A stretch of DNA of 55,496 nucleotides from Lachnospiraceae bacterium (lineage in GTDB: Bacteria; Bacillota; Clostridia; Lachnospirales; Lachnospiraceae): the NCBI GenBank assembly GCA_017427775.1, contig JAFRSD010000030.1, positions 1-55,496 on the forward strand, in the 5' to 3' direction. Shown here one piece after another: positions 26,761-35,819 of the stretch. The notes below the pieces were generated by a model, which did not search any database, was not told where the DNA came from, and worked only from the letters and a program-made list of their open reading frames with translations. Each line of letters starts with the position of its first letter. The first letter of the stretch is position 1. A program made the position numbers and the translations under genes.

Positions 26761-26850
26761 ATTCGGAATCTCCTTTTCCGTCTCTCCCTCAAAAAGCGCA
26801 AAATAATACGCAAGCATTCCGAAAAGCGCCGATTGCGAGTAGAATATTTC

Positions 26851-26879
26851 TTGACAAAGCGTACAATAAGCAATATACT
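26851..26879 (+). promoter_or_regulatory. Promoter of the XRE regulator
   Basis: A perfect TTGACA (26851-26856), a 17-base spacer and TATACT (26874-26879), 74 bases before the start codon. It may also drive the downstream attenuator, because no clear promoter is seen in the short gap before the leader peptide. Confidence 0.75.
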
Positions 26880-26952
26880 TGAGCCAATCGAGTGTAATTC
26901 TACCACCGGGAACAGACAAATACAAGCGACATTTTTTACCCTAAGGAGTAAT

Positions 26953-27561
26953 ATGATACCTGCCGAAGAACAAACTGACAGAAGCAGACGGTTCGCACAC
27001 ATATGGTCCGCCTCCAGGGCAGATGCCGGAAGGACGCAGGCGGAAATGGCCGAGGGACTCGGGATTTCCCGAAAGACGGTCCAGAACTGGGAGAACGGCG
27101 TTACCGCACCTGATCTGTTTACGGGCTGTGAATGGTTCCGTTTTCTCGGGTTAAACCCTTTGCCGTATTACCTCGCATATCTGTTTCCCGAGTTCTTCAA
27201 GGATACCGATCCCGAGGAGAACGATGATGCGCTCGGAAACGCGTTGATGGAACTCGTACAGAATATGTCGACCGCGGAGAAACGCCAGTTGCTGTTTTTG
27301 CTCGCGGGAAGGCACGGAAGCCCCTGGAACTCCCTGTTACAGATGTTCACGGCGCATTGCCATACGAGCATGCGGTCGCGGGTAAATGTGGCGCGGGCGG
27401 TTCTCGATAATTACGAGATGGAAGCGAAAACGGGTGATCTGGTATGCCCGGACAACATTGCTCCGGATCTCGAACTCCTGCGGGAGTCCATCGAGCAGGG
27501 AAAGAAAGCGGCAATGGACCGCACGGGCGGATATAAGCCCATTTTGAACCGGGATAAGTAA
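26953..27561 (+). CDS. XRE-family transcriptional regulator
   Basis: DNA-binding protein of 202 residues. A helix-turn-helix lies at about residues 20-55, with RTQAEMAEGLGISRKTVQNWENG. The rest is a helical region, PEENDDALGNALMELVQNMSTAEKRQ and further, of unknown role. AAGGAG lies four bases before the ATG. It sits immediately upstream of the aromatic leader peptide in the same direction, so it may be co-transcribed with, or regulate, the aro operon. Both ideas are inference from position. Confidence 0.85.
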   Translation: MIPAEEQTDRSRRFAHIWSASRADAGRTQAEMAEGLGISRKTVQNWENGVTAPDLFTGCEWFRFLGLNPLPYYLAYLFPEFFKDTDPEENDDALGNALMELVQNMSTAEKRQLLFLLAGRHGSPWNSLLQMFTAHCHTSMRSRVNVARAVLDNYEMEAKTGDLVCPDNIAPDLELLRESIEQGKKAAMDRTGGYKPILNRDK

Positions 27562-27580
27562 TCTCCCGGGAATAACGAAA

Positions 27581-27609
27581 CGACCACGTCCGGCAAGTCC
27601 GGTCGGTTT
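27581..27609 (+). terminator. Weak hairpin between the XRE gene and the leader peptide
   Basis: Outer pairs CGACC/GGTCG close a loop that can itself form CCGG/CCGG, followed by GTTTT. It may partly terminate the XRE transcript. Support is weak. Confidence 0.35.
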
Positions 27610-27627
27610 TCGGAGGAACAATCAGTT

Positions 27628-27714
27628 ATGCAGACAATCGGTCAGCACGCATTTTATTATTGGTTTTACTTTTACTTTACCGGCTTTTGTGGTAAGGTTA
27701 ATTTGCGTGCCTAG
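27628..27714 (+). CDS. Aromatic leader peptide of the aro operon attenuator
   Basis: A 28-codon open frame, ATG at 27628 and TAG at 27712-27714, with GGAGG at 27612-27616. Residues 9-17 are nine consecutive aromatic residues, FYYWFYFYF, with another Phe at position 20. All three aromatic amino acids occur. The peptide is followed by alternative RNA helices and lies directly before the shikimate, phenylalanine and tyrosine genes. This is the layout of a ribosome-mediated attenuation leader such as E. coli pheL. When aromatic aminoacyl-tRNAs are scarce the ribosome should stall in the run and allow read-through. It has no function as a protein that I can infer. Confidence 0.9.
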   Translation: MQTIGQHAFYYWFYFYFTGFCGKVNLRA

Positions 27715-27761
27715 ATTTATGACGAAATCATAACGTGAATCCAATGCGGCACAGATTAACC
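27696..27761 (+). promoter_or_regulatory. Antiterminator helix of the aro attenuator
   Basis: Segment 27696-27711, the end of the leader peptide frame, can pair with 27748-27761. GGTTAAT pairs with ATTAACC (seven perfect pairs), then T-G and T-A, a two-base bulge, and GTGCC pairs with GGCAC. This uses the upper stem and loop of the terminator, so the two folds exclude each other. The upstream strand ends one base before the leader stop codon, so a ribosome finishing the peptide would mask it, while one stalled in the aromatic run would leave it free. Confidence 0.8.
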
Positions 27762-27775
27762 TGCGTCGCATTTTT
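27743..27775 (+). terminator. Attenuator terminator before aroF
   Basis: Stem AATGCG/CGCATT extended by six more positions with one G-T and one A-C mismatch, loop ATTAAC, followed by a U-tract of five (two overlapping the stem). It ends 31 bases before the aroF start codon. Confidence 0.85.
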
Positions 27776-27805
27776 CTTTATAAAATCTTATCGGAGGACA
27801 GAAAC

Positions 27806-28807
27806 ATGATAGTAGTATTGAAACCCAATGTCGGAACAGAGCGTGAAGAGCAGCTGATCGGATGGTTTAAGAGTCTCGGACTCGGCGTACATGTATCCGA
27901 AGGTCAGTTCCAGACGGTGCTCGGACTGATCGGCGATACGAGCAAAGTGGATTCCGATCTCGTGGCAAGCCTCGACATTGTTGATTCCGTAAAGCGCGTA
28001 ACGGAGACATTCAAATGCGCAAACCGCAAGTTTCATCCCGAGGATACGGTCATAGAAGTCGGCAACGTCAAAGTCGGCGGAGGAAACTTCTGTATGATTG
28101 CAGGCCCCTGCTCCGTAGAGAGCGAGGAGCAGATCGTCGGGATTGCCAAGGCTGTTAAGGCGGCGGGAGCAAACATGCTTCGCGGCGGCGCTTTCAAGCC
28201 CAGAACATCCCCGTACGATTTCCAGGGACTGAAGGCAGAAGGAATCGAGCTTTTGAAGATTGCAAGACAGGAAACGGGACTTCCGATCGTTACGGAGATC
28301 ATGAACGCTTCCGATCTGCCGCTTTTTGAGGATGTCGACGTATTGCAGGTCGGTGCACGCAACACGCAGAACTTCGACCTTTTGAAGGAACTCGGACATA
28401 CCGGAAAGCCGATCCTTTTGAAGCGCGGCATCGCCGGAACGCTGAAAGAGCTTCTGATGAGCGCAGAGTACATTATGTCGAGCGGCAACGAGAACGTCAT
28501 CCTTTGCGAGCGCGGCATCCGTTCCTACAGCGATTACCTGCGGAACACGCTGGATCTTTCCGCGGTTCCGATGCTTCACGAATTGACGCACCTTCCCGTT
28601 GTCGTTGATCCGAGCCATGCGACCGGTATGGCGAGAATGGTTCCGCCGATGGCGCTTGCCGCTACGGCCTGCGGCTGTGACGGCCTGTTGATCGAGGTTC
28701 ACAACGATCCGCCGCACGCACTTTGCGACGGCGCACAGTCGATCCGTCCGGAAGAGTTTGCAAAGCTCGCCGGTAAAGTTATGGCTGTTCGGGAGGCGTC
28801 CAGATGA
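27806..28807 (+). CDS. aroF: 3-deoxy-7-phosphoheptulonate (DAHP) synthase
   Basis: First enzyme of the shikimate pathway, joining PEP and erythrose 4-phosphate, 333 residues. A ferredoxin-like N-terminal domain (about 1-70), the feedback-inhibition module of the Thermotoga and Bacillus type enzymes, is followed by the barrel with [45 protein letters not shown] and [14 protein letters not shown] precedes the ATG. It is the first gene after the attenuator and overlaps tyrA by four bases, so the committed step is under the leader's control. Confidence 0.96.
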
Positions 28808-29634
28808 AAGTCGGAATTGTAGGGCTCGGCCTGATCGGCGGGTCCTTTGCCAAAGCATACAGTAAGGAAGGACACGAGGTATGCGCGTTTGATACGGACG
28901 AGGCGATCTTCCGCTTTGCCGTATTAAGCGGTGTTGTTTCGAAGGAATTGACGGATGAGGAGATTCCTACGTGTGATTTGATCTTGATCTGTACTTATCC
29001 CGAAGCGGCAGTCCGCTATATGGAGGAAAAGGGGCCCGTTTTCGGCCCGAAACCGATTGTGATCGACTGCTGCGGAACAAAGCAGAACGTTGTCGGACAC
29101 GGCTTCGAATGTGCGAAGAAGTACGGATTTACCTATATCGGCGGGCATCCGATGGCCGGGACGCAGTTCTCCGGCTTCAAGTATTCCAAGGAAAATATGT
29201 ACCACGGTGCGCCGATGGTGCTTGTACCCGAGAAGAACGACGACATTACGTTTTTGGACCGCGTGAAGCAGCTTCTGATGCCTGCAGGGTTCGGAAGCAT
29301 CACCGTAACGACGGCCGAAACGCACGACAAGGTCATCGCATTTTCCTCACAGCTCGCACACGTCGTTTCGAATGCGTACGTGAAAAGCCCTTCTGCGGAA
29401 ATCCATACAGGGATGTCGGCGGGAAGTTACAAGGATATGACAAGGGTTGCATGGCTGAATCCCGAAATGTGGACGCAGTTGTTTCTGGATAATGCGGACA
29501 ATCTGGTCCGTGAGATCGACACGCTGATGGAGAATCTTGCGCAATACCGCAAGGCAATTGCGGAAGGCGACCGCGGGACGCTCATTAAGCTCTTAGATGA
29601 AGGACGTAAACGCAAAGAGGAGGTAGACGGATGA
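28804..29634 (+). CDS. tyrA: Prephenate dehydrogenase
   Basis: NAD(P)-dependent enzyme of the tyrosine branch, 276 residues. The dinucleotide fold is VGIVGLGLIGGSFAKA at the N-terminus. The conserved GGHPMAGT and the catalytic-region FSSQLAHVVSNAYV are present. There is no C-terminal ACT domain, unlike Bacillus TyrA, so tyrosine feedback must act elsewhere or through the active site. Start and stop overlap the neighbours by four bases. Confidence 0.93.
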   Translation: MKVGIVGLGLIGGSFAKAYSKEGHEVCAFDTDEAIFRFAVLSGVVSKELTDEEIPTCDLILICTYPEAAVRYMEEKGPVFGPKPIVIDCCGTKQNVVGHGFECAKKYGFTYIGGHPMAGTQFSGFKYSKENMYHGAPMVLVPEKNDDITFLDRVKQLLMPAGFGSITVTTAETHDKVIAFSSQLAHVVSNAYVKSPSAEIHTGMSAGSYKDMTRVAWLNPEMWTQLFLDNADNLVREIDTLMENLAQYRKAIAEGDRGTLIKLLDEGRKRKEEVDG

Positions 29635-30674
29635 TTTCCGTACAGGTAAAAGCCGGAAAAGGATACCGCGTATTGATCGGAGCAGGTCTTTTAAAGGATC
29701 TCCCGGCGAAGCTCTCGGAAGTGACGGGCTCTAAGCATGTGATGCTCGTTTCGGACGATACCGTATGGGGGCTTTACGGGGAGACGGTTCAGGCAGGCCT
29801 TAACGAGGCGGGATACCGGACGGAAACCTATGTCTTCGCGCACGGAGAAGCAAGCAAGAACCTTTCGGTATACGGAGCGCTTCTTGAGAAGATGTGCGAC
29901 GCCCATTTAACAAGAGAGGATCCGTTGCTTGCGCTTGGCGGCGGAGTAGTCGGCGATCTTGCCGGATTTGCCGCGGCGACCTATCAAAGAGGCGTGCCGC
30001 TCGTGCAGCTCCCGACGACGCTTCTGGCGGCCGTGGACTCTTCGGTCGGCGGAAAGACAGCGGTTGACCTGCCGAACGGAAAGAACCAGGTGGGGGCATT
30101 TTACCAGCCCGCTCTTGTTGTATGCGATACGAATACGTTTGCAACGCTTCCCGAAACGGAATATCAAAACGGTTGCGCGGAGATCATTAAGTACGGAATG
30201 CTTTCCGGAAGCGAAGAGCTGTTCCGGATGCTAAAGGACCAGCCGGTTCGCAACCGGTACGAGGAGATTGTCGGACGGTGCGTTTCCATTAAGCGTGATT
30301 TCGTCGAGGAAGACGAGTTTGACCGCGGACTCCGGATGCTCTTGAATCTCGGACATACGGTCGGGCATGGCATTGAAGCGTGCAGCGGCTTTACAATCCC
30401 CCACGGGCAGGCGGTTGCGATCGGAATGGCTGCGATTGCGCGCGGAACGGCGCGAAAAGGCTTATTCGACAGCGCTTCGGCCGAGGAACTTGTAAACCTG
30501 ATCAAGGCATACGGACTTCCGACGGAGCTTCCGTTTTCCAAAGAGGAAATCGCTGCAAAAGCGATGAGTGATAAGAAAAATACGACCGATGCCATGCGGA
30601 TCATCATCCCCGAGCGCATCGGAACCTGCCGGATCGAGAAGATTGTGCCGGCAGCGTTTACGGAGTGGTTTTAG
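29631..30674 (+). CDS. aroB: 3-dehydroquinate synthase
   Basis: Second shikimate pathway enzyme, NAD- and metal-dependent, 347 residues. Family signatures are ALGGGVVGDLAGFAAATYQRG, LPTTLLAAVDSSVGGKTAVD, the metal ligand region GCAEIIKYGML, and LNLGHTVGHGIEA. The start overlaps tyrA in ATGA and aroA begins one base after its stop. Confidence 0.96.
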   Translation: MISVQVKAGKGYRVLIGAGLLKDLPAKLSEVTGSKHVMLVSDDTVWGLYGETVQAGLNEAGYRTETYVFAHGEASKNLSVYGALLEKMCDAHLTREDPLLALGGGVVGDLAGFAAATYQRGVPLVQLPTTLLAAVDSSVGGKTAVDLPNGKNQVGAFYQPALVVCDTNTFATLPETEYQNGCAEIIKYGMLSGSEELFRMLKDQPVRNRYEEIVGRCVSIKRDFVEEDEFDRGLRMLLNLGHTVGHGIEACSGFTIPHGQAVAIGMAAIARGTARKGLFDSASAEELVNLIKAYGLPTELPFSKEEIAAKAMSDKKNTTDAMRIIIPERIGTCRIEKIVPAAFTEWF

Positions 30675-30675
30675 A

Positions 30676-31884
30676 ATGATTTATACGATTCAGGCGGGGA
30701 TGCGCACCGGCATGGTGACGCCGCCCGTTTCAAAATCGATCGCACACCGAAAGCTGATCTGCGCAGCGCTTTCCGAAGGAGCATGTGTCGTGGACTGCGG
30801 TCCGGCGGAGGAACTATCCGCCGATATTACCGCTACGGAGGACTGCTTAAAGGAACTTCTTCACGGCGGCAGCGTGCTTCCGTGCAAAGAGAGCGGCTCT
30901 ACGCTTCGTTTCCTTCTTCCGGTTGCGGCGGCGCTCGGCGCGGATGTTTCGTTTCATATGGAAGGGCTTCTGCCGAACCGGCCGCATAAGGAATTGATCG
31001 AGCAATTGGTTCTTCACGGCGCGAAGATCCGTCAGGACGGCAGCGAGCTGTACTGTAAAGGTCCGCTTGATCCGGGCACCTATACGATTCCCGGCGGTGT
31101 TTCCTCGCAGTTTATTTCGGGGCTTTTATTCGCTCTTCCGCTTCTTGCGGGCGACAGCCGGATCGTGATTGAAGGAAAGCTCGAATCGGCGGCATATGTC
31201 GCGATGACCGAACAGGCGGTCCGCGAAGCCGGGATCCGGGTAATAAAGGAAGAAAACGGATATTTCATCCCCGGCGGGCAGAAATACCGCGCAAAAGCAT
31301 ATGAAACGGTGGAAAAGGACTGGTCCGGCGCCGCATTTTACCTATGCATGGGCGCGCTCGGGACGGAAGGGATAACCGTTTCGGGACTTCGCAAAGATTC
31401 GCTTCAGGGCGACCGGAGTATCCTTGCTGTTTTGAGAGGATTCGGGGCTGAAGTTACGGAAAGCGAAGCCGGAATCCTTGTAAAAAGGGGCGCTTCGATG
31501 AAGCCGCAGACGATAGATGCGTCGGAAATACCCGATCTGGTGCCGGTAATCTGCGTATTGGCAGCAGGAATCAACGGCGAGACCCGCATTACCCATGCGG
31601 AACGGCTTCGTTATAAAGAATCGGACCGTCTTGCAACGACGGCGGCACTGATCCGCTCGCTCGGCGGGAATGCGGAGCAGACGGCGGACGGCTTGCTCAT
31701 AAAAGGGACGGGAACGCTTACCGGCGGAACGGTGGATCCCTATAAGGACCACCGTATCGCTATGTCGGCAGCGGTTGCGGCGGCAATCTGCCGTGATCCC
31801 GTGGTGATAAAAGATGCGGAATGTGCCGGTAAATCATATCCCGGCTTCTATCAAGACTTGGAACAACTGGAGGTAACTGGATGA
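30676..31884 (+). CDS. aroA: 3-phosphoshikimate 1-carboxyvinyltransferase (EPSP synthase)
   Basis: Adds the enolpyruvyl group of PEP to shikimate 3-phosphate, 402 residues. Substrate-binding signatures are PPVSKSIAHRKLI at the N-terminus, ESGSTLRFLLPVAA near 75, and the C-terminal RYKESDRLATTA and DPYKDHRIAMSAAVAA. The segment ESGSTLR replaces the GNAGTAMR of enteric enzymes, so it is unlike the enteric class I form. It is slightly shorter than the usual 425-430. I start it at the ATG at 30676; 36 upstream codons of the open frame overlap aroB. Confidence 0.94.
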   Translation: MIYTIQAGMRTGMVTPPVSKSIAHRKLICAALSEGACVVDCGPAEELSADITATEDCLKELLHGGSVLPCKESGSTLRFLLPVAAALGADVSFHMEGLLPNRPHKELIEQLVLHGAKIRQDGSELYCKGPLDPGTYTIPGGVSSQFISGLLFALPLLAGDSRIVIEGKLESAAYVAMTEQAVREAGIRVIKEENGYFIPGGQKYRAKAYETVEKDWSGAAFYLCMGALGTEGITVSGLRKDSLQGDRSILAVLRGFGAEVTESEAGILVKRGASMKPQTIDASEIPDLVPVICVLAAGINGETRITHAERLRYKESDRLATTAALIRSLGGNAEQTADGLLIKGTGTLTGGTVDPYKDHRIAMSAAVAAAICRDPVVIKDAECAGKSYPGFYQDLEQLEVTG

Positions 31885-32954
31885 GCAGTACTTACGGGGA
31901 AAATATCAGAGTAACGATATTCGGGCAGTCGCATTCGCCGGCAATCGGCGTCACGTTGGAAGGCATTCCGGCCGGAGAACGGATTGATTTCGAAGAACTG
32001 TCCGCATTTACCGCAAGAAGGGCGCCCGGCGGGCAGGCATATGCTACGGCGAGGAAGGAAGCTGATCTTCCGGAGTTTCTTAGCGGTGTTAAGATGAATG
32101 TTACATGCGGAACTCCGATCACGGCGATCATTCGGAATACCGATACGCGTTCGGGCGACTATGAGAACCTGAAAACGGTTCCGCGTCCCGGACATGCGGA
32201 CTTTACGGCGAACGTCAAATATAACGGATATCAGGATTATGCCGGCGGCGGACATTTCTCCGGTCGGCTTACTGCGCCTTTATGCATCGCAGGCGGTATC
32301 TGTAAACAGATCCTTGCCCGAGAAGGAATCCGTATCGCTGCAAGAATCGCAGCGATCGGCGGGGTGAAGGATGAAGGCAAACTTACCGAAGCAGTGCTCG
32401 GTAAGACCTTTCCTGTTATGAACGACGCTCAGGGCGAGAAGATGCTTGCTAAGATCGCGGAAGCGAAAGCGGAAGGCGATTCGGTCGGCGGAATCTTGGA
32501 ATGCGCGGTGTTCGGACTTCCCGCGGGACTCGGGGATCCGATGTTCGACGGAATGGAGAACCGGATCGCGCAGATCGTCTTCGGAATTCCGGCGGTGAAA
32601 GGACTTGAATTCGGCGTGGGATTTGCTGCAGCCGAAATGCGCGGAAGCGAAAACAACGATGCCTTTACGGTTGAAAACGGGCGTGTTGTTACAAAAACAA
32701 ACCATTGCGGCGGGATCCTCGGCGGGATTACAAACGGAATGCCGCTTACGTTCCGTGCCGCGTTTAAGCCTACGCCTTCGATCGCGAAGGAGCAGGACAG
32801 CGTAAATCTTACGACCATGGAACCGGTAAAGCTTGCGGTTAAGGGACGGCATGATCCGTGCATCGTTCCGCGCGCCGTGCCGGTTGTCGAGGCGGCAGCC
32901 GCGATCGCGGTCTATGATGCATGGCTCGGAAGACGAAAGGAGATACAGGCTTGA
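31881..32954 (+). CDS. aroC: Chorismate synthase
   Basis: Last common step, FMN-dependent, 357 residues. Signatures are the N-terminal TIFGQSHSPAIGVTLEGIPAG, the central GRLTAPLCIAGGICKQIL, GGILGGITNGMP and RHDPCIVPRAVPVVEAAAA. The start overlaps aroA by four bases in ATGA and the stop overlaps the pheA TTG start. Confidence 0.95.
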   Translation: MSSTYGENIRVTIFGQSHSPAIGVTLEGIPAGERIDFEELSAFTARRAPGGQAYATARKEADLPEFLSGVKMNVTCGTPITAIIRNTDTRSGDYENLKTVPRPGHADFTANVKYNGYQDYAGGGHFSGRLTAPLCIAGGICKQILAREGIRIAARIAAIGGVKDEGKLTEAVLGKTFPVMNDAQGEKMLAKIAEAKAEGDSVGGILECAVFGLPAGLGDPMFDGMENRIAQIVFGIPAVKGLEFGVGFAAAEMRGSENNDAFTVENGRVVTKTNHCGGILGGITNGMPLTFRAAFKPTPSIAKEQDSVNLTTMEPVKLAVKGRHDPCIVPRAVPVVEAAAAIAVYDAWLGRRKEIQA

Positions 32955-34093
32955 ATATTCAGGATTACCGAAAGAAAATCGATGAGATAGACGATAACCT
33001 CGTGCGGCTGTTCGAGGAGCGGATGGATGTGGCGGCCGCGATCGCGGACTATAAGAAGGCCAATTCCATGCCGGTCAAAGACCCCGCGCGGGAGAAGGAG
33101 AAGGTTCTCGACGTTTTAGATAAGACGAGGGACGATCTGAAGGAATACACGCCTCTTCTGTTCCAGGTGCTTTTCGAATTGAGCCGCAGCTATCAGACGA
33201 GACGCAACGGGGCGGAAACGGAACTTACCGATCAGATCAAGGCTGCGATCGAGCAAACGCCGTCCATGATCCCGGACAGCCCGAGCGTTGCATGCCAGGG
33301 CATTGCCGGAGCCAATTCGCAGGCGGCCTGCGAGAAGTTGTTCCGTTACCCGAAGACGTTCTTCTGCTCTTCGTTTGAGGCGGTTTTCTCGGCAATCGAG
33401 ACCGGTCTCTGCACCTACGGTGTCATTCCGCTCGAGAACAGCAACGCCGGCTCGGTAAATAAAGTCTATGATCTGATGATGAAGCACCGTTTTTATGTGG
33501 TTCGGAGTATCCGGCTGAAGGTTCGGCATAACCTGCTTTGTAAGCCCGGTGCGGAGCTCTCCGATATTAAGGAAATCTATTCCCACGAGCAGGCGATCAG
33601 CCAGTGCTCCGATTTCCTGCAGACGCTTAAGAACGTTCGCGTGATCCCGTGCGAGAACACCGCTGTAGCCGCGAAAATGGTTGCCGACAGTGACCGGAAA
33701 GACATTGCTGCGCTTGCCAGCGAGCAGTGCGAATCGCAGTACGGCTTAAAGTGCATTCGGAAATCCGTTCAGAATACCGATAACAACTATACCCGTTTCA
33801 TCTGCATCGCGAAGAAGCTTGAGATTTATCCCGGCGCGAACCGGACAAGCCTCATGATGACGCTTCCGCATGAGCAGGGATCCCTTTTTAAGATGCTCTC
33901 CCGCTTCTACGCGCTCGGCATCAACCTGAACAAGCTTGAAAGCCGTCCTCTTCCGGACCGCGAGTTCGAGTTCATGTTCTATTTTGACCTGGATACACCG
34001 GTTTACTCGCCGAACCTGACCCAGCTGATCGGCGAATTGCAGAATTCCTGCGATTTCTTCCAGTATCTCGGCAGCTACAGCGAGGTAATCTGA
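32951..34093 (+). CDS. pheA: Bifunctional chorismate mutase / prephenate dehydratase
   Basis: Phenylalanine branch enzyme of 380 residues. AroQ-type chorismate mutase occupies about 1-85 (YRKKIDEIDDNLVRLFEERM, with the conserved R and K residues), prephenate dehydratase about 110-290 (CQGIAGANSQAACEKLF and GVIPLENSNAGSV, and NTDNNYTRFICI), and a C-terminal ACT domain carries NKLESRPLPDREFEFMFYFDL, the phenylalanine-binding ESRP motif. I start it at TTG 32951, eight bases after AGGAG and overlapping the aroC stop. Confidence 0.94.
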   Translation: MNIQDYRKKIDEIDDNLVRLFEERMDVAAAIADYKKANSMPVKDPAREKEKVLDVLDKTRDDLKEYTPLLFQVLFELSRSYQTRRNGAETELTDQIKAAIEQTPSMIPDSPSVACQGIAGANSQAACEKLFRYPKTFFCSSFEAVFSAIETGLCTYGVIPLENSNAGSVNKVYDLMMKHRFYVVRSIRLKVRHNLLCKPGAELSDIKEIYSHEQAISQCSDFLQTLKNVRVIPCENTAVAAKMVADSDRKDIAALASEQCESQYGLKCIRKSVQNTDNNYTRFICIAKKLEIYPGANRTSLMMTLPHEQGSLFKMLSRFYALGINLNKLESRPLPDREFEFMFYFDLDTPVYSPNLTQLIGELQNSCDFFQYLGSYSEVI

Positions 34094-34094
34094 T

Positions 34095-35375
34095 ATGATA
34101 CAATGCGGCCTTCTCGGAGAGAAACTCGGGCACAGCTACTCGCCTGCCATCCACAAGCGGCTCGGCACATATGCATATGATCTGTATGAAAAGGCGCCGT
34201 CCGAAGTGGAGGGTTTCTTAAAGGACGGCAAATGGCACGGCCTCAACGTGACGATCCCGTATAAGAAGACTGTCTTCCCGCTTCTTCACGAGGTAAGCGA
34301 AACCGCAAACGCCATCGGAAGCGTCAACACGATCGTACGCCGTCCGGACGGCACGCTGTTCGGGGACAATACCGACGCGTACGGCTTCCGGAAGATGCTG
34401 GAGCGTTCGGGCGTTCCGGTTGCCGGCCGAAAGGTTCTGGTGCTCGGAAACGGCGGAGCCGCCGCGGCGGTTTTATATGTATTGAAAAGTGCCGGCGCGC
34501 AGGTGGTTGTCATAAGCCGGAGCGGGCCGGATAACTATGAAAACCTTGACCGTCACGCGGATGCGATTATGATCGTCAATACGACGCCTCTCGGGATGTA
34601 TCCGAATAACGGCGCTGCTGCCGTTGACCTGACTCATTTTCCGAAATGCGAGGCGGTACTCGACCTGATCTATAATCCTGCACGGACGGCGCTTCTGCTG
34701 CAGGCGGAACGACTCGGAATCCCTTATGAGAACGGGCTTTATATGCTTGTCGCGCAGGCAAAACGGAGTGCGGAGCTGTTTCTCGGAGCGGAAATTGCCG
34801 ATTCTAGGATTGACCGGATATACCGCGAGCTTTCCGTCCTTCTTATGAATATCGTTTTGATCGGAATGCCGGGTTCGGGGAAGAGCACTGTAGCAAAGAA
34901 ACTTGCCGCGATCAGTGACCGTACGGTTTATGATGCCGATGCGGAATTTGAGAGGAAATACGGCAGAACGCCCGAGGACGTGATCCGTTCGGAGGGGGAA
35001 GAGGCATTTCGGAAGATGGAAACAGAAGTGCTTCGTGCTCTCGGGGCGCTGTCCGGTACGATTCTCGCAACCGGCGGCGGGGCCGTGACAAGAGAGGAGA
35101 ATTACCCGCTTCTTCACCAAAACGGAATCATTGTATGGATCAAGCGGGACGTTTCCGAACTTGCGACGGAGCATCGTCCGCTTTCGCAGATGACCGGCAG
35201 GGAAGCGCTTTACGAGAAGAGGAAGCCGATGTACGAGGCATTTGCCGACTGCAGCGCGGCATACGACGAACCTGCGGAGCAGATCCTCGAAGCGGTTACG
35301 GCGTACGTGGAGAAGGCTGAAACGGCAGCGACGTGCGCGGCGCATGCTGAAAAGGCTGTCGGACGAAAGGACTGA
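34095..35375 (+). CDS. aroE-aroK: Fused shikimate dehydrogenase - shikimate kinase
   Basis: 426 residues that join two consecutive pathway enzymes. AroE covers about 1-248, with KLGHSYSPAIHK, the catalytic lysine in LNVTIPYKK, the NADP motif VLGNGGAAAAVLYVL and NTTPLGMYP. AroK covers about 251-410, with the P-loop GMPGSGKST, DADAEFERKYG, ATGGGAV and RPLSQM. The junction is direct, with almost no linker, and residue 251 is a methionine without a ribosome binding site in front, which supports a true fusion. The last 20 residues are an Ala/Glu-rich tail. It starts one base after pheA. Confidence 0.94.
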   Translation: MIQCGLLGEKLGHSYSPAIHKRLGTYAYDLYEKAPSEVEGFLKDGKWHGLNVTIPYKKTVFPLLHEVSETANAIGSVNTIVRRPDGTLFGDNTDAYGFRKMLERSGVPVAGRKVLVLGNGGAAAAVLYVLKSAGAQVVVISRSGPDNYENLDRHADAIMIVNTTPLGMYPNNGAAAVDLTHFPKCEAVLDLIYNPARTALLLQAERLGIPYENGLYMLVAQAKRSAELFLGAEIADSRIDRIYRELSVLLMNIVLIGMPGSGKSTVAKKLAAISDRTVYDADAEFERKYGRTPEDVIRSEGEEAFRKMETEVLRALGALSGTILATGGGAVTREENYPLLHQNGIIVWIKRDVSELATEHRPLSQMTGREALYEKRKPMYEAFADCSAAYDEPAEQILEAVTAYVEKAETAATCAAHAEKAVGRKD

Positions 35376-35381
35376 TCAGAT

Positions 35382-35819
35382 ATGAAATTTCTTGTTTTAA
35401 ACGGACCGAACCTTAACATGCTCGGCATCCGTGAGCCCGCGATCTACGGGGCGCAGAATTATGCGGCGTTGGTGGAATTCGTAAAGAAGTCGGGCGAGGA
35501 AGAAGGGATTGAAACCGACGTCTTCCAAAGCAATCACGAAGGCGTATTGGTCGATAAGATCCAGGAAGCACTCGGCGTTTATGACGGAATCGTCATCAAC
35601 CCTGCGGCATATACCCACACAAGCGTGGCAATCTTAGACGCGCTGAAGGCAGTTTCGCTGCCCGCGGTGGAAGTTCATCTTTCAAAAGTATCCGAACGCG
35701 AGGATTTCCGCCAGATTTCCTACGCGGGCAAGGCATGTATAAAGCGTTATGAAGGGCTTGGATTTGAAGGATACAGGGAGGCAATTCGTTTTTTGAAAGC
35801 GTATCTTCAGCAGGCATAA
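35382..35819 (+). CDS. aroQ: Type II 3-dehydroquinate dehydratase
   Basis: Third shikimate pathway step, 145 residues. Signatures are LNGPNLNMLGIREPAIYG with the catalytic tyrosine, FQSNHEGVLVDKIQEA, INPAAYTHTSVAILDAL and VEVHLSKVSEREDFR. It follows the fusion gene by six bases and completes the set of enzymes from DAHP to chorismate in this operon. I see no clear terminator after it. Confidence 0.94.
   Translation: MKFLVLNGPNLNMLGIREPAIYGAQNYAALVEFVKKSGEEEGIETDVFQSNHEGVLVDKIQEALGVYDGIVINPAAYTHTSVAILDALKAVSLPAVEVHLSKVSEREDFRQISYAGKACIKRYEGLGFEGYREAIRFLKAYLQQA

Follow-up and report, generated by a model that had tools for sequence, protein, structure and literature searches.

What controls the aromatic amino acid operon of this Lachnospiraceae bacterium? 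By the textbook, amino acid operons of Gram-positive bacteria are under T-boxes and TRAP. The stretch of DNA analyzed here (55,496 nucleotides, referred to as the window) carries an eight-gene aro operon, which comprises the common pathway and continues into the Phe and Tyr branches as far as the last transamination; no trp gene was found among the eight. The original prediction, made from the sequence of the window, placed leader-peptide, ribosome-mediated attenuation ahead of this operon, a reading that is backed by the exclusive folds, the conservation and the covariation described below. The operon has the following features:

27793..27797, + strand, Shine-Dalgarno sequence of aroF, GGAGG (direct sequence reading)
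27806..28807, + strand, aroF, DAHP synthase of the TIGR01361 type (protein-family models)
28804..29634, + strand, tyrA, prephenate dehydrogenase (147 bits with the best NCBIfam model, whose cut-off is 295)
29631..30674, + strand, aroB, 3-dehydroquinate synthase (protein-family models)
30568..31884, + strand, aroA, EPSP synthase (ORF as listed; the true start is probably further in)
31881..32954, + strand, aroC, chorismate synthase (protein-family models)
32921..34093, + strand, pheA, chorismate mutase-prephenate dehydratase (Pfam PDT and CM_2 over cut-off, NCBIfam below)
34095..35375, + strand, aroE-aroK fusion, shikimate dehydrogenase-shikimate kinase (Pfam models Shikimate_dh_N and SKI, both above cut-off)
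35382..35819, + strand, aroQ, type II 3-dehydroquinate dehydratase (protein-family models)

The leader and its exclusive folds in the window

The enteric pheL and trpL leaders fold by a scheme of 1:2, 2:3 and 3:4 helices, and the segments upstream of aroF are numbered in the same way:

27612..27616, + strand, Shine-Dalgarno sequence of the leader, GGAGG (direct sequence reading)
27628..27714, + strand, leader peptide ORF MQTIGQHAFYYWFYFYFTGFCGKVNLRA, 28 codons, stop codon TAG at 27712-27714 (translation)
27645..27651, + strand, segment 1, GCACGCA, partner of 27704-27710 in the untranslated leader (minimum-energy fold)
27652..27678, + strand, control codons Phe-Tyr-Tyr-Trp-Phe-Tyr-Phe-Tyr-Phe (direct sequence reading)
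27696..27711, + strand, segment 2, GGTTAATTTGCGTGCC, 5' arm of the antiterminator (folding, duplex, covariation in 19 loci)
27743..27772, + strand, terminator hairpin AATGCGGCACAG-ATTAAC-CTGCGTCGCATT, segments 3:4 (-14.1 kcal/mol, followed by a T tract; covariation in 19 loci)
27748..27761, + strand, segment 3, GGCACAGATTAACC, 3' arm of the antiterminator, common to the terminator (folding, duplex, covariation)
27771..27779, + strand, T tract of the terminator (direct sequence reading)

Direct reading of the sequence bore out the predicted 28-codon frame with its own GGAGG, nine consecutive aromatic codons and a stop at 27714, coordinates included. The leader starts with the ATG at 27628, at a rather long distance of 11 nt from the GGAGG. 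A ribosome binding site and a short translatable ORF, as expected of an attenuator, are therefore present 5' of the aro operon, and the codon run encodes Phe and Tyr, the operon's own end products. In the same genome, 21 matches to five consecutive Phe/Tyr codons (nine of them on the minus strand) were counted, compared to 42 for the reversed control pattern; judged by the open frame alone, the sole leader-like match among the 21 was that at 27664, in a scan that needed five unbroken Phe/Tyr codons and that shorter or interrupted runs escape.

The region 27630-27779 folded with -42.3 kcal/mol (z = -4.1), and none of 200 shuffles folded as well. For segments 2 and 3, which had been predicted to pair over about 14 pairs, we obtained 13 pairs as a two-strand duplex and 15–17 in the nascent-RNA fold with a ribosome in the run. 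Segment 3 lies in the terminator hairpin, which covers 27743-27779 including its T tract, and cannot serve both folds, in agreement with the predicted exclusion of one by the other. An intrinsic terminator is thus located between the leader and aroF, though this hairpin was missing from a consensus terminator scan of 27400-27900. The control codons lie between the arms of an additional helix (27645-27651:27704-27710), absent from the original prediction, that is the counterpart of the 1:2 helix in classical attenuators. In the window alone, the antiterminator duplex was unexceptional (p = 0.104, dinucleotide shuffles), and the case rests on conservation and not on this single sequence.

The window was also folded with a ribosome at each codon, its leading edge being assumed 9 nt past the A-site codon. 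With the ribosome at codons 1-2, no antiterminator was obtained and the terminator formed, and with the ribosome at the stop codon only the terminator remained. With the ribosome in the aromatic run, 15–17 antiterminator pairs formed in the nascent RNA. These foldings fit the prediction that a ribosome at the stop blocks the antiterminator and one in the run does not, with the qualification that the nascent antiterminator is not specific to the run, as it also appeared at codons 3-8 and, with 13–17 pairs, at codons 18-20. In the full-length fold, the antiterminator was favored only for codons 14-17, the last Tyr-Phe-Tyr-Phe of the run, and the terminator was favored at equilibrium for codons 9-13, so that in this model a response at the early run codons would depend on kinetics.

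Conservation and covariation upstream of aroF

Loci for comparison (numbered with the prefix L) were picked by their AroF protein only, 80 from public contigs (the best 80 of 584 confirmed) and 30 from related whole genomes, the locus of the window included. The 110 fetched AroF loci were used except one that was left out because it had no upstream sequence (109 loci), and removal of the near-duplicates L056, L094 and L097 resulted in 106 upstream regions. By a strict rule (a short ORF no more than 250 nt from aroF, with ≥6 aromatic among 10 residues), a leader was detected in 75 of the 106 loci, the window counted, in this sample with the best 80 of 584 contigs, and was missing in 31. In the controls, such an ORF occurred in 243 of 10600 dinucleotide shuffles (2.3%), in 2 of the 106 regions when reverse-complemented, and upstream of 14 of 397 further long ORFs from these loci. 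Phe plus Tyr ranked first of all 190 residue pairs with 73 loci, against 25 for the second pair. A looser rule (5 in 10, 330 nt) was passed by 89 of 106 loci. L060, L101, L102 and L103, which have no terminator and were taken for the C-terminal coding part of a gene lying upstream, were dropped by hand, and L016 was kept despite its weak run (only FYY), resulting in 85 leaders. A Shine-Dalgarno-like sequence (≥4 matching bases) preceded 81 of these, and a terminator was located 3' of 84; L018, which had none, was left out of the duplex tests, which thus comprised 84 loci. Shuffles preserved dinucleotides for the leader frequency and the per-locus duplex tests, and were simple for the arm swap and spacing tests and for the promoter and class-wide tests.

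Nineteen near loci, including that of the window, were aligned to assess covariation, with shuffle counts that ignore the relatedness among the 19 rows. In the antiterminator, 91.2% of the cells were paired, and 16 double-change cells were observed compared to 6.7 in shuffles, a value reached by none of 500; by a weaker measure, five pairs with double changes were found, a number reached by 24 of 500 shuffles. Sliding the antiterminator partner by 1–3 columns reduced pairing to 25–55%, in a comparison that somewhat favors the unslid version because the structures were drawn from L098, one of the alignment rows. The terminator was paired in 95.4% of its cells and had nine double-change cells, again reached by 0 of 500 shuffles. 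Alignment columns 85, 87, 88, 89 and 101 are common to both structures. The column pair 26:98 showed UA, GC, AU, CG, GU and UG, which are six standard pair types; as this column pair falls outside the stem drawn for the terminator, that stem does not account for its covariation. Two folds that exclude each other are hence both conserved, as in an attenuator. An alignment of relatives' upstream regions had been proposed along with the original prediction, and the two signs it looked for were seen: the aromatic run is kept (75 of 106) and compensatory changes occur in both the terminator and the antiterminator.

Leader arms also matched the terminator arms of their own locus. After centring, the own arm had an advantage over swapped ones of 3.25 kcal/mol in 84 loci (permutation p = 2e-4) and, class-wide, of 4.65 kcal/mol in 48 loci (p = 2e-4), while the own leader was top-ranked for only 5 of 84 terminator arms (median rank 15.5). 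Tested per locus, the antiterminator duplex reached p ≤ 0.05 in 33 of 84 loci, and the 1:2 helix, which is present in the window, in 32 of 84. In 54 of 84 loci, compared to 21% in shuffles, the antiterminator arm began 10–20 nt past the end of the aromatic run, a distance that approximates the leading edge of a ribosome paused at the end of the run and is thus suited to a stalled ribosome. The stop codon was located 5' of the antiterminator arm in some loci, inside it in others and 3' of it in yet others. As its position varies and the distance from run to arm is kept, it is the spacing and not the length of the peptide that is more constant.

The peptide itself could be the sensor, if its nascent chain arrested the ribosome in response to a free aromatic compound, as in TnaC, and not to tRNA charging. 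In favor of such an arrest, the closest species have leaders that are almost the same, and a motif like S-W-G ... S-A-G-Y-F is retained in one sub-type. Across the relatives, however, composition and not sequence is kept, the positions of Phe and Tyr varying from run to run. In addition, the RNA element GTAAGG-TAATTTG shifts in relation to the frame: it is part of the ORF in the window, whereas L015, L096 and L098 have it at the stop codon or 3' of it, which indicates that RNA, not peptide, is conserved there. We consider peptide arrest very unlikely.

From the leader ORF, its codons and the conserved, covarying and mutually exclusive folds, we infer stalling, read-through and a physiological response of the following kind. 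When Phe or Tyr is scarce, the leading ribosome would stall in the Phe/Tyr run and leave segment 2 free; segment 2 would then pair with segment 3, no terminator would form, and RNA polymerase would proceed into aroF and the seven genes behind it. When Phe and Tyr are both plentiful, the ribosome would reach the stop codon and cover segment 2, allowing the 3:4 terminator to form. If the leader were untranslated, pairing of segments 1 and 2 would lead to the terminator as well. Very probably, the element attenuates transcription by way of a translating ribosome and responds to the charging of tRNA-Phe and tRNA-Tyr.

The leader of the window is directly preceded by a further gene with a promoter of its own:

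26851..26879, + strand, sigma-70-type promoter TTGACA-N17-TATACT before the helix-turn-helix gene (11/12 consensus matches)
26953..27561, + strand, helix-turn-helix (HTH_3) gene directly 5' of the leader (PF01381, E = 1.3e-9)

The promoter at 26851-26879 is the nearest good one to the attenuator of the window. No promoter was seen in the 200 nt 5' of the leader, and the sole plus-strand promoter-like site near it (9/12 matches, 27631-27660) lies inside the leader. The HTH gene is probably co-transcribed with the leader and, since the nearest good promoter precedes the HTH gene and none precedes the leader, the attenuator is probably intercistronic in the clade of the window (L013, L095, L096, L097 and L100), between the HTH gene and aroF. 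HTH copies in L013/L094, L095, L096, L097 and L100 were 65–94% identical, and their stop codon is near the leader start or overlaps it; counted from the first base of that start, the HTH frame ends 4 nt further on in L100 and 17 nt further on in L096. By eye, a promoter was recognized at the same place in L013, L095, L096 and L097, and as TTGACA/TATAAT in L100. In no other locus among L013-L268, many with only 500 nt upstream, was the HTH gene found; in L098, which belongs to the same genus, a promoter immediately precedes the leader and no HTH gene was detected. Around the HTH promoter (26839-26903), GTAGAAT (26839) and its inverse ATTCTAC (26897) form a flanking pair, with similar sequences by eye in L013 and L095, and this pair is a possible candidate operator for the HTH protein itself.

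As the HTH gene adjoins and no promoter was seen between it and the leader, the hairpin might merely be the terminator of the HTH gene and the rest coincidence. The probability of this is close to nil: a promoter with ≥10/12 matches was found in the 110 nt before 55 of 85 leaders compared to 2.5% of shuffles, the window being among those without one, and among L013-L268 the HTH gene was found only in the clade of the window, yet leader, antiterminator and terminator are kept elsewhere.

Amino acids probably sensed and the place of T-boxes

One leader watching all three aromatic amino acids, as originally proposed, did not hold up. The runs of the 85 leaders contained 314 Tyr, 275 Phe and 20 Trp residues, with any Trp in only 17 of 85 runs. 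The Trp share of the aromatic residues was 3.3% in the runs compared to 9.0% in long ORFs of the same loci, and being below the long-ORF level, it indicates that Trp is not selected for in the runs. On this composition, Trp was rejected as a co-equal signal. The operon is also without a trp gene, and trpE has a T-box of its own, so the leader most likely senses Phe and Tyr and not all three. It is a separate matter whether Trp, through the single Trp codon of the window, is a true third input of this particular attenuator. The codon is kept in the clade of the window, as FYYW in L013, L095, L096 and L097 and as FFYW in L100, and a minor Trp input is possible for this clade. That Trp is a true third input nevertheless appears rather doubtful, given the depletion across the 85 runs, the run without Trp in L098 of the same genus, the T-box upstream of trpE, and the failure of a ribosome at the Trp codon (codon 12) to hold the full-length antiterminator in the folding model.

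T-boxes (RF00230) likewise read tRNA charging and act by antitermination, and they need no translated leader. The genome had 12 T-box matches, six of them over Rfam's cut-off. T-boxes precede tyrS, pheS and trpE. The T-box upstream of trpE (E = 5e-18, 85 bits, below the Rfam cut-off of 93) has by our own reading the specifier UGG, one base off the register of the model; the one upstream of tyrS has the specifier UAC; and in that upstream of pheS (91 bits, below cut-off) UUC can be read only with an insertion. T-boxes thus appear to control the trp genes and the synthetases for Phe and Tyr, and a translated leader the aro operon.

Since T-boxes are this common in the genome, the region before aroF could be one as well, or another riboswitch or a protein-bound (TRAP-like) leader, the aromatic ORF being accidental. 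At gathering scores, Rfam yielded two tRNAs only in the whole window, and with the threshold relaxed to E = 10 it gave just two weak matches in 27300-27900, both unrelated. No T-box core motif was present in the 89 aroF upstream regions sampled in the class. Furthermore, the aromatic ORF is far more frequent (75 of 106) than expected by chance. A T-box at the aro operon was rejected, with neither a covariance-model match nor a core motif, and a leader of any of these kinds is extremely improbable compared to Phe/Tyr attenuation by a translated leader. In 40 loci of relatives, Rfam gave no match at the leaders and one T-box, in L292 (347-590, 114.6 bits), located ~900 nt upstream of an aroF without an aromatic leader. 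Another T-box, in L003 (G000:C41:37786-38030), has a UUC (Phe) specifier and precedes a phenylacetate-CoA ligase-like gene (TIGR02155, 542 bits, below the cut-off of 646).

Distribution, known systems and significance

In the class, 212 of 291 genomes had an AroF match, from which a non-random sample of 89 AroF genes was taken (the 29 loci that came first among those returned, plus 60 chosen by going down the matches, one per genome). The 6-in-10 rule identified a leader in 52 of the 89 and none in 37, in a sample that includes two short upstream sequences (L185, 132 nt; L223, 99 nt); without three loci that overlap the first set (L181=L016, L186=L036, L197=L040), 51 of 86 had a leader. In the phylum, AroF matched in 176 of 199 genomes, and a leader was found in 17 of the 29 returned loci examined, all 17 from genomes listed outside the class; L280 repeats L264, and L279 passes the rule but looks doubtful. 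Both samples stem from the top of the match lists and therefore favor AroF proteins close to that of the window. Such a leader had been predicted to be unusual in a Clostridia-like genome, and this is so against the textbook expectation only, the leader being frequent in the class (52/89) and the phylum (17/29). A second leader architecture, in which S-(W/L/Q)-(G/S) stands between two runs and S-A-G-Y-F comes after them, is common in these two samples; in L227, L230, L232, L247, L260, L261, L291 and L293, the Phe/Tyr runs flank S-(W/L/P)-(G/S) and the tail is like SAGYF or SAGFF. In the class sample, upstream of aroF genes with ≤4 aromatic residues in 10, a terminator hairpin was present within 200 nt in 16 of 27 cases (shuffled, 6 of 40), and other attenuators may act there.

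The leader was also found before pheA. Of 14 loci examined in the genus of the window, eight with pheA-first operons have an F/Y leader preceding pheA (L166, L167, L169-L174). In L168 and L179, the sequence available 5' of pheA yielded no leader by the threshold, and L175, L176 and L178 are truncated by contig ends. Six further frames elsewhere in these 14 loci were over the threshold. In one genome (G060, L099/L177), an AroF 77% identical to that of the window has no aromatic leader, and a separate pheA has a leader-like ORF; this aroF was perhaps transferred. Within one genus, AroC was 71–90% like that of the window in the aroF-first group (comparison of L125-L130 with L134-L144), 59–62% in pheA-first operons with aroF (L131-L133), and 47–52% identical in operons without an AroF match, which are pheA-first where seen. 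These groups perhaps reflect operon replacement.

The mechanism is classical ribosome-mediated attenuation, known for pheA and trp in enteric bacteria and for aroR-aroF in Corynebacterium. The window resembles the enteric pheL and trpL leaders in its control codons, its 2:3 and 3:4 helices, a putative 1:2 helix and the terminator before the operon; it differs from them in mixing Phe and Tyr, in preceding a whole chorismate-Phe-Tyr operon and in belonging to another phylum, and no sequence kinship is claimed. The pheL-pheA and trpL-trp attenuators (PMC11802643) each respond to one amino acid. For the C. glutamicum aroR leader (Phe-Tyr-Phe) before aroF, PMC11802643 and PMC4046766 report that stalling raises transcription under Phe limitation and that Tyr is without effect. 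Both this leader and that of the window are aromatic leader peptides 5' of a DAHP synthase gene, but aroR-aroF belongs to the Actinobacteria and has three control residues, whereas six or more are common here. The predicted uORFC-13-1, with Phe codon(s) and an adjacent terminator before aroF, is presented in PMC8632094 with 24 representatives from Acholeplasma and environmental sequences only and a U run that codes for at least one Phe; by description, the level at which the two were compared, the window leader is like it in having a uORF and a terminator before aroF. Database-predicted attenuators before tyrA supraoperons are given in Table 7 of PMC1173090, among them one for pheA > aroA-I-beta > tyrA > aroF of Thermoanaerobacter tengcongensis. 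These are similar in operon content but are generic terminator/antiterminator predictions, with no leader peptide described in that part of the article. Other cases are histidine attenuators before hisZ in C. difficile and Bacillus, cited in PMC4833913, and, in the B. cereus group, a tyrosine operon reported to be preceded by a T-box (PMC2494555). In the open-licence literature, screened mostly by title and the start of the abstract, we recognized no description of an F/Y leader in Clostridia; an earlier notice is possible. As far as our searches reach, the breadth in this group, the lack of an Rfam match and the position behind an HTH gene in the clade of the window are new.

Taken together, we lean toward a reading in which Phe/Tyr leader attenuation is a main and ancient phylum-wide control of the common aromatic pathway, follows whichever gene heads the operon (aroF or pheA), and operates alongside T-boxes for the tRNA synthetases and the Trp branch. 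The leaders would then form an undescribed RNA family with at least two architectures, and the HTH gene would have joined the transcript upstream in the clade of the window.

One genome appears to read the charging of Phe, Tyr and Trp tRNAs by T-boxes (tyrS, pheS, trpE) and, at its aro operon, by a translating ribosome. Transcription-translation coupling has been questioned for some Gram-positive bacteria. For tests of the attenuator, evolution supplies a ready set of compensatory variants. If the proposed mechanism is true, it would imply widespread and testable transcription-translation coupling in anaerobic gut and rumen bacteria.
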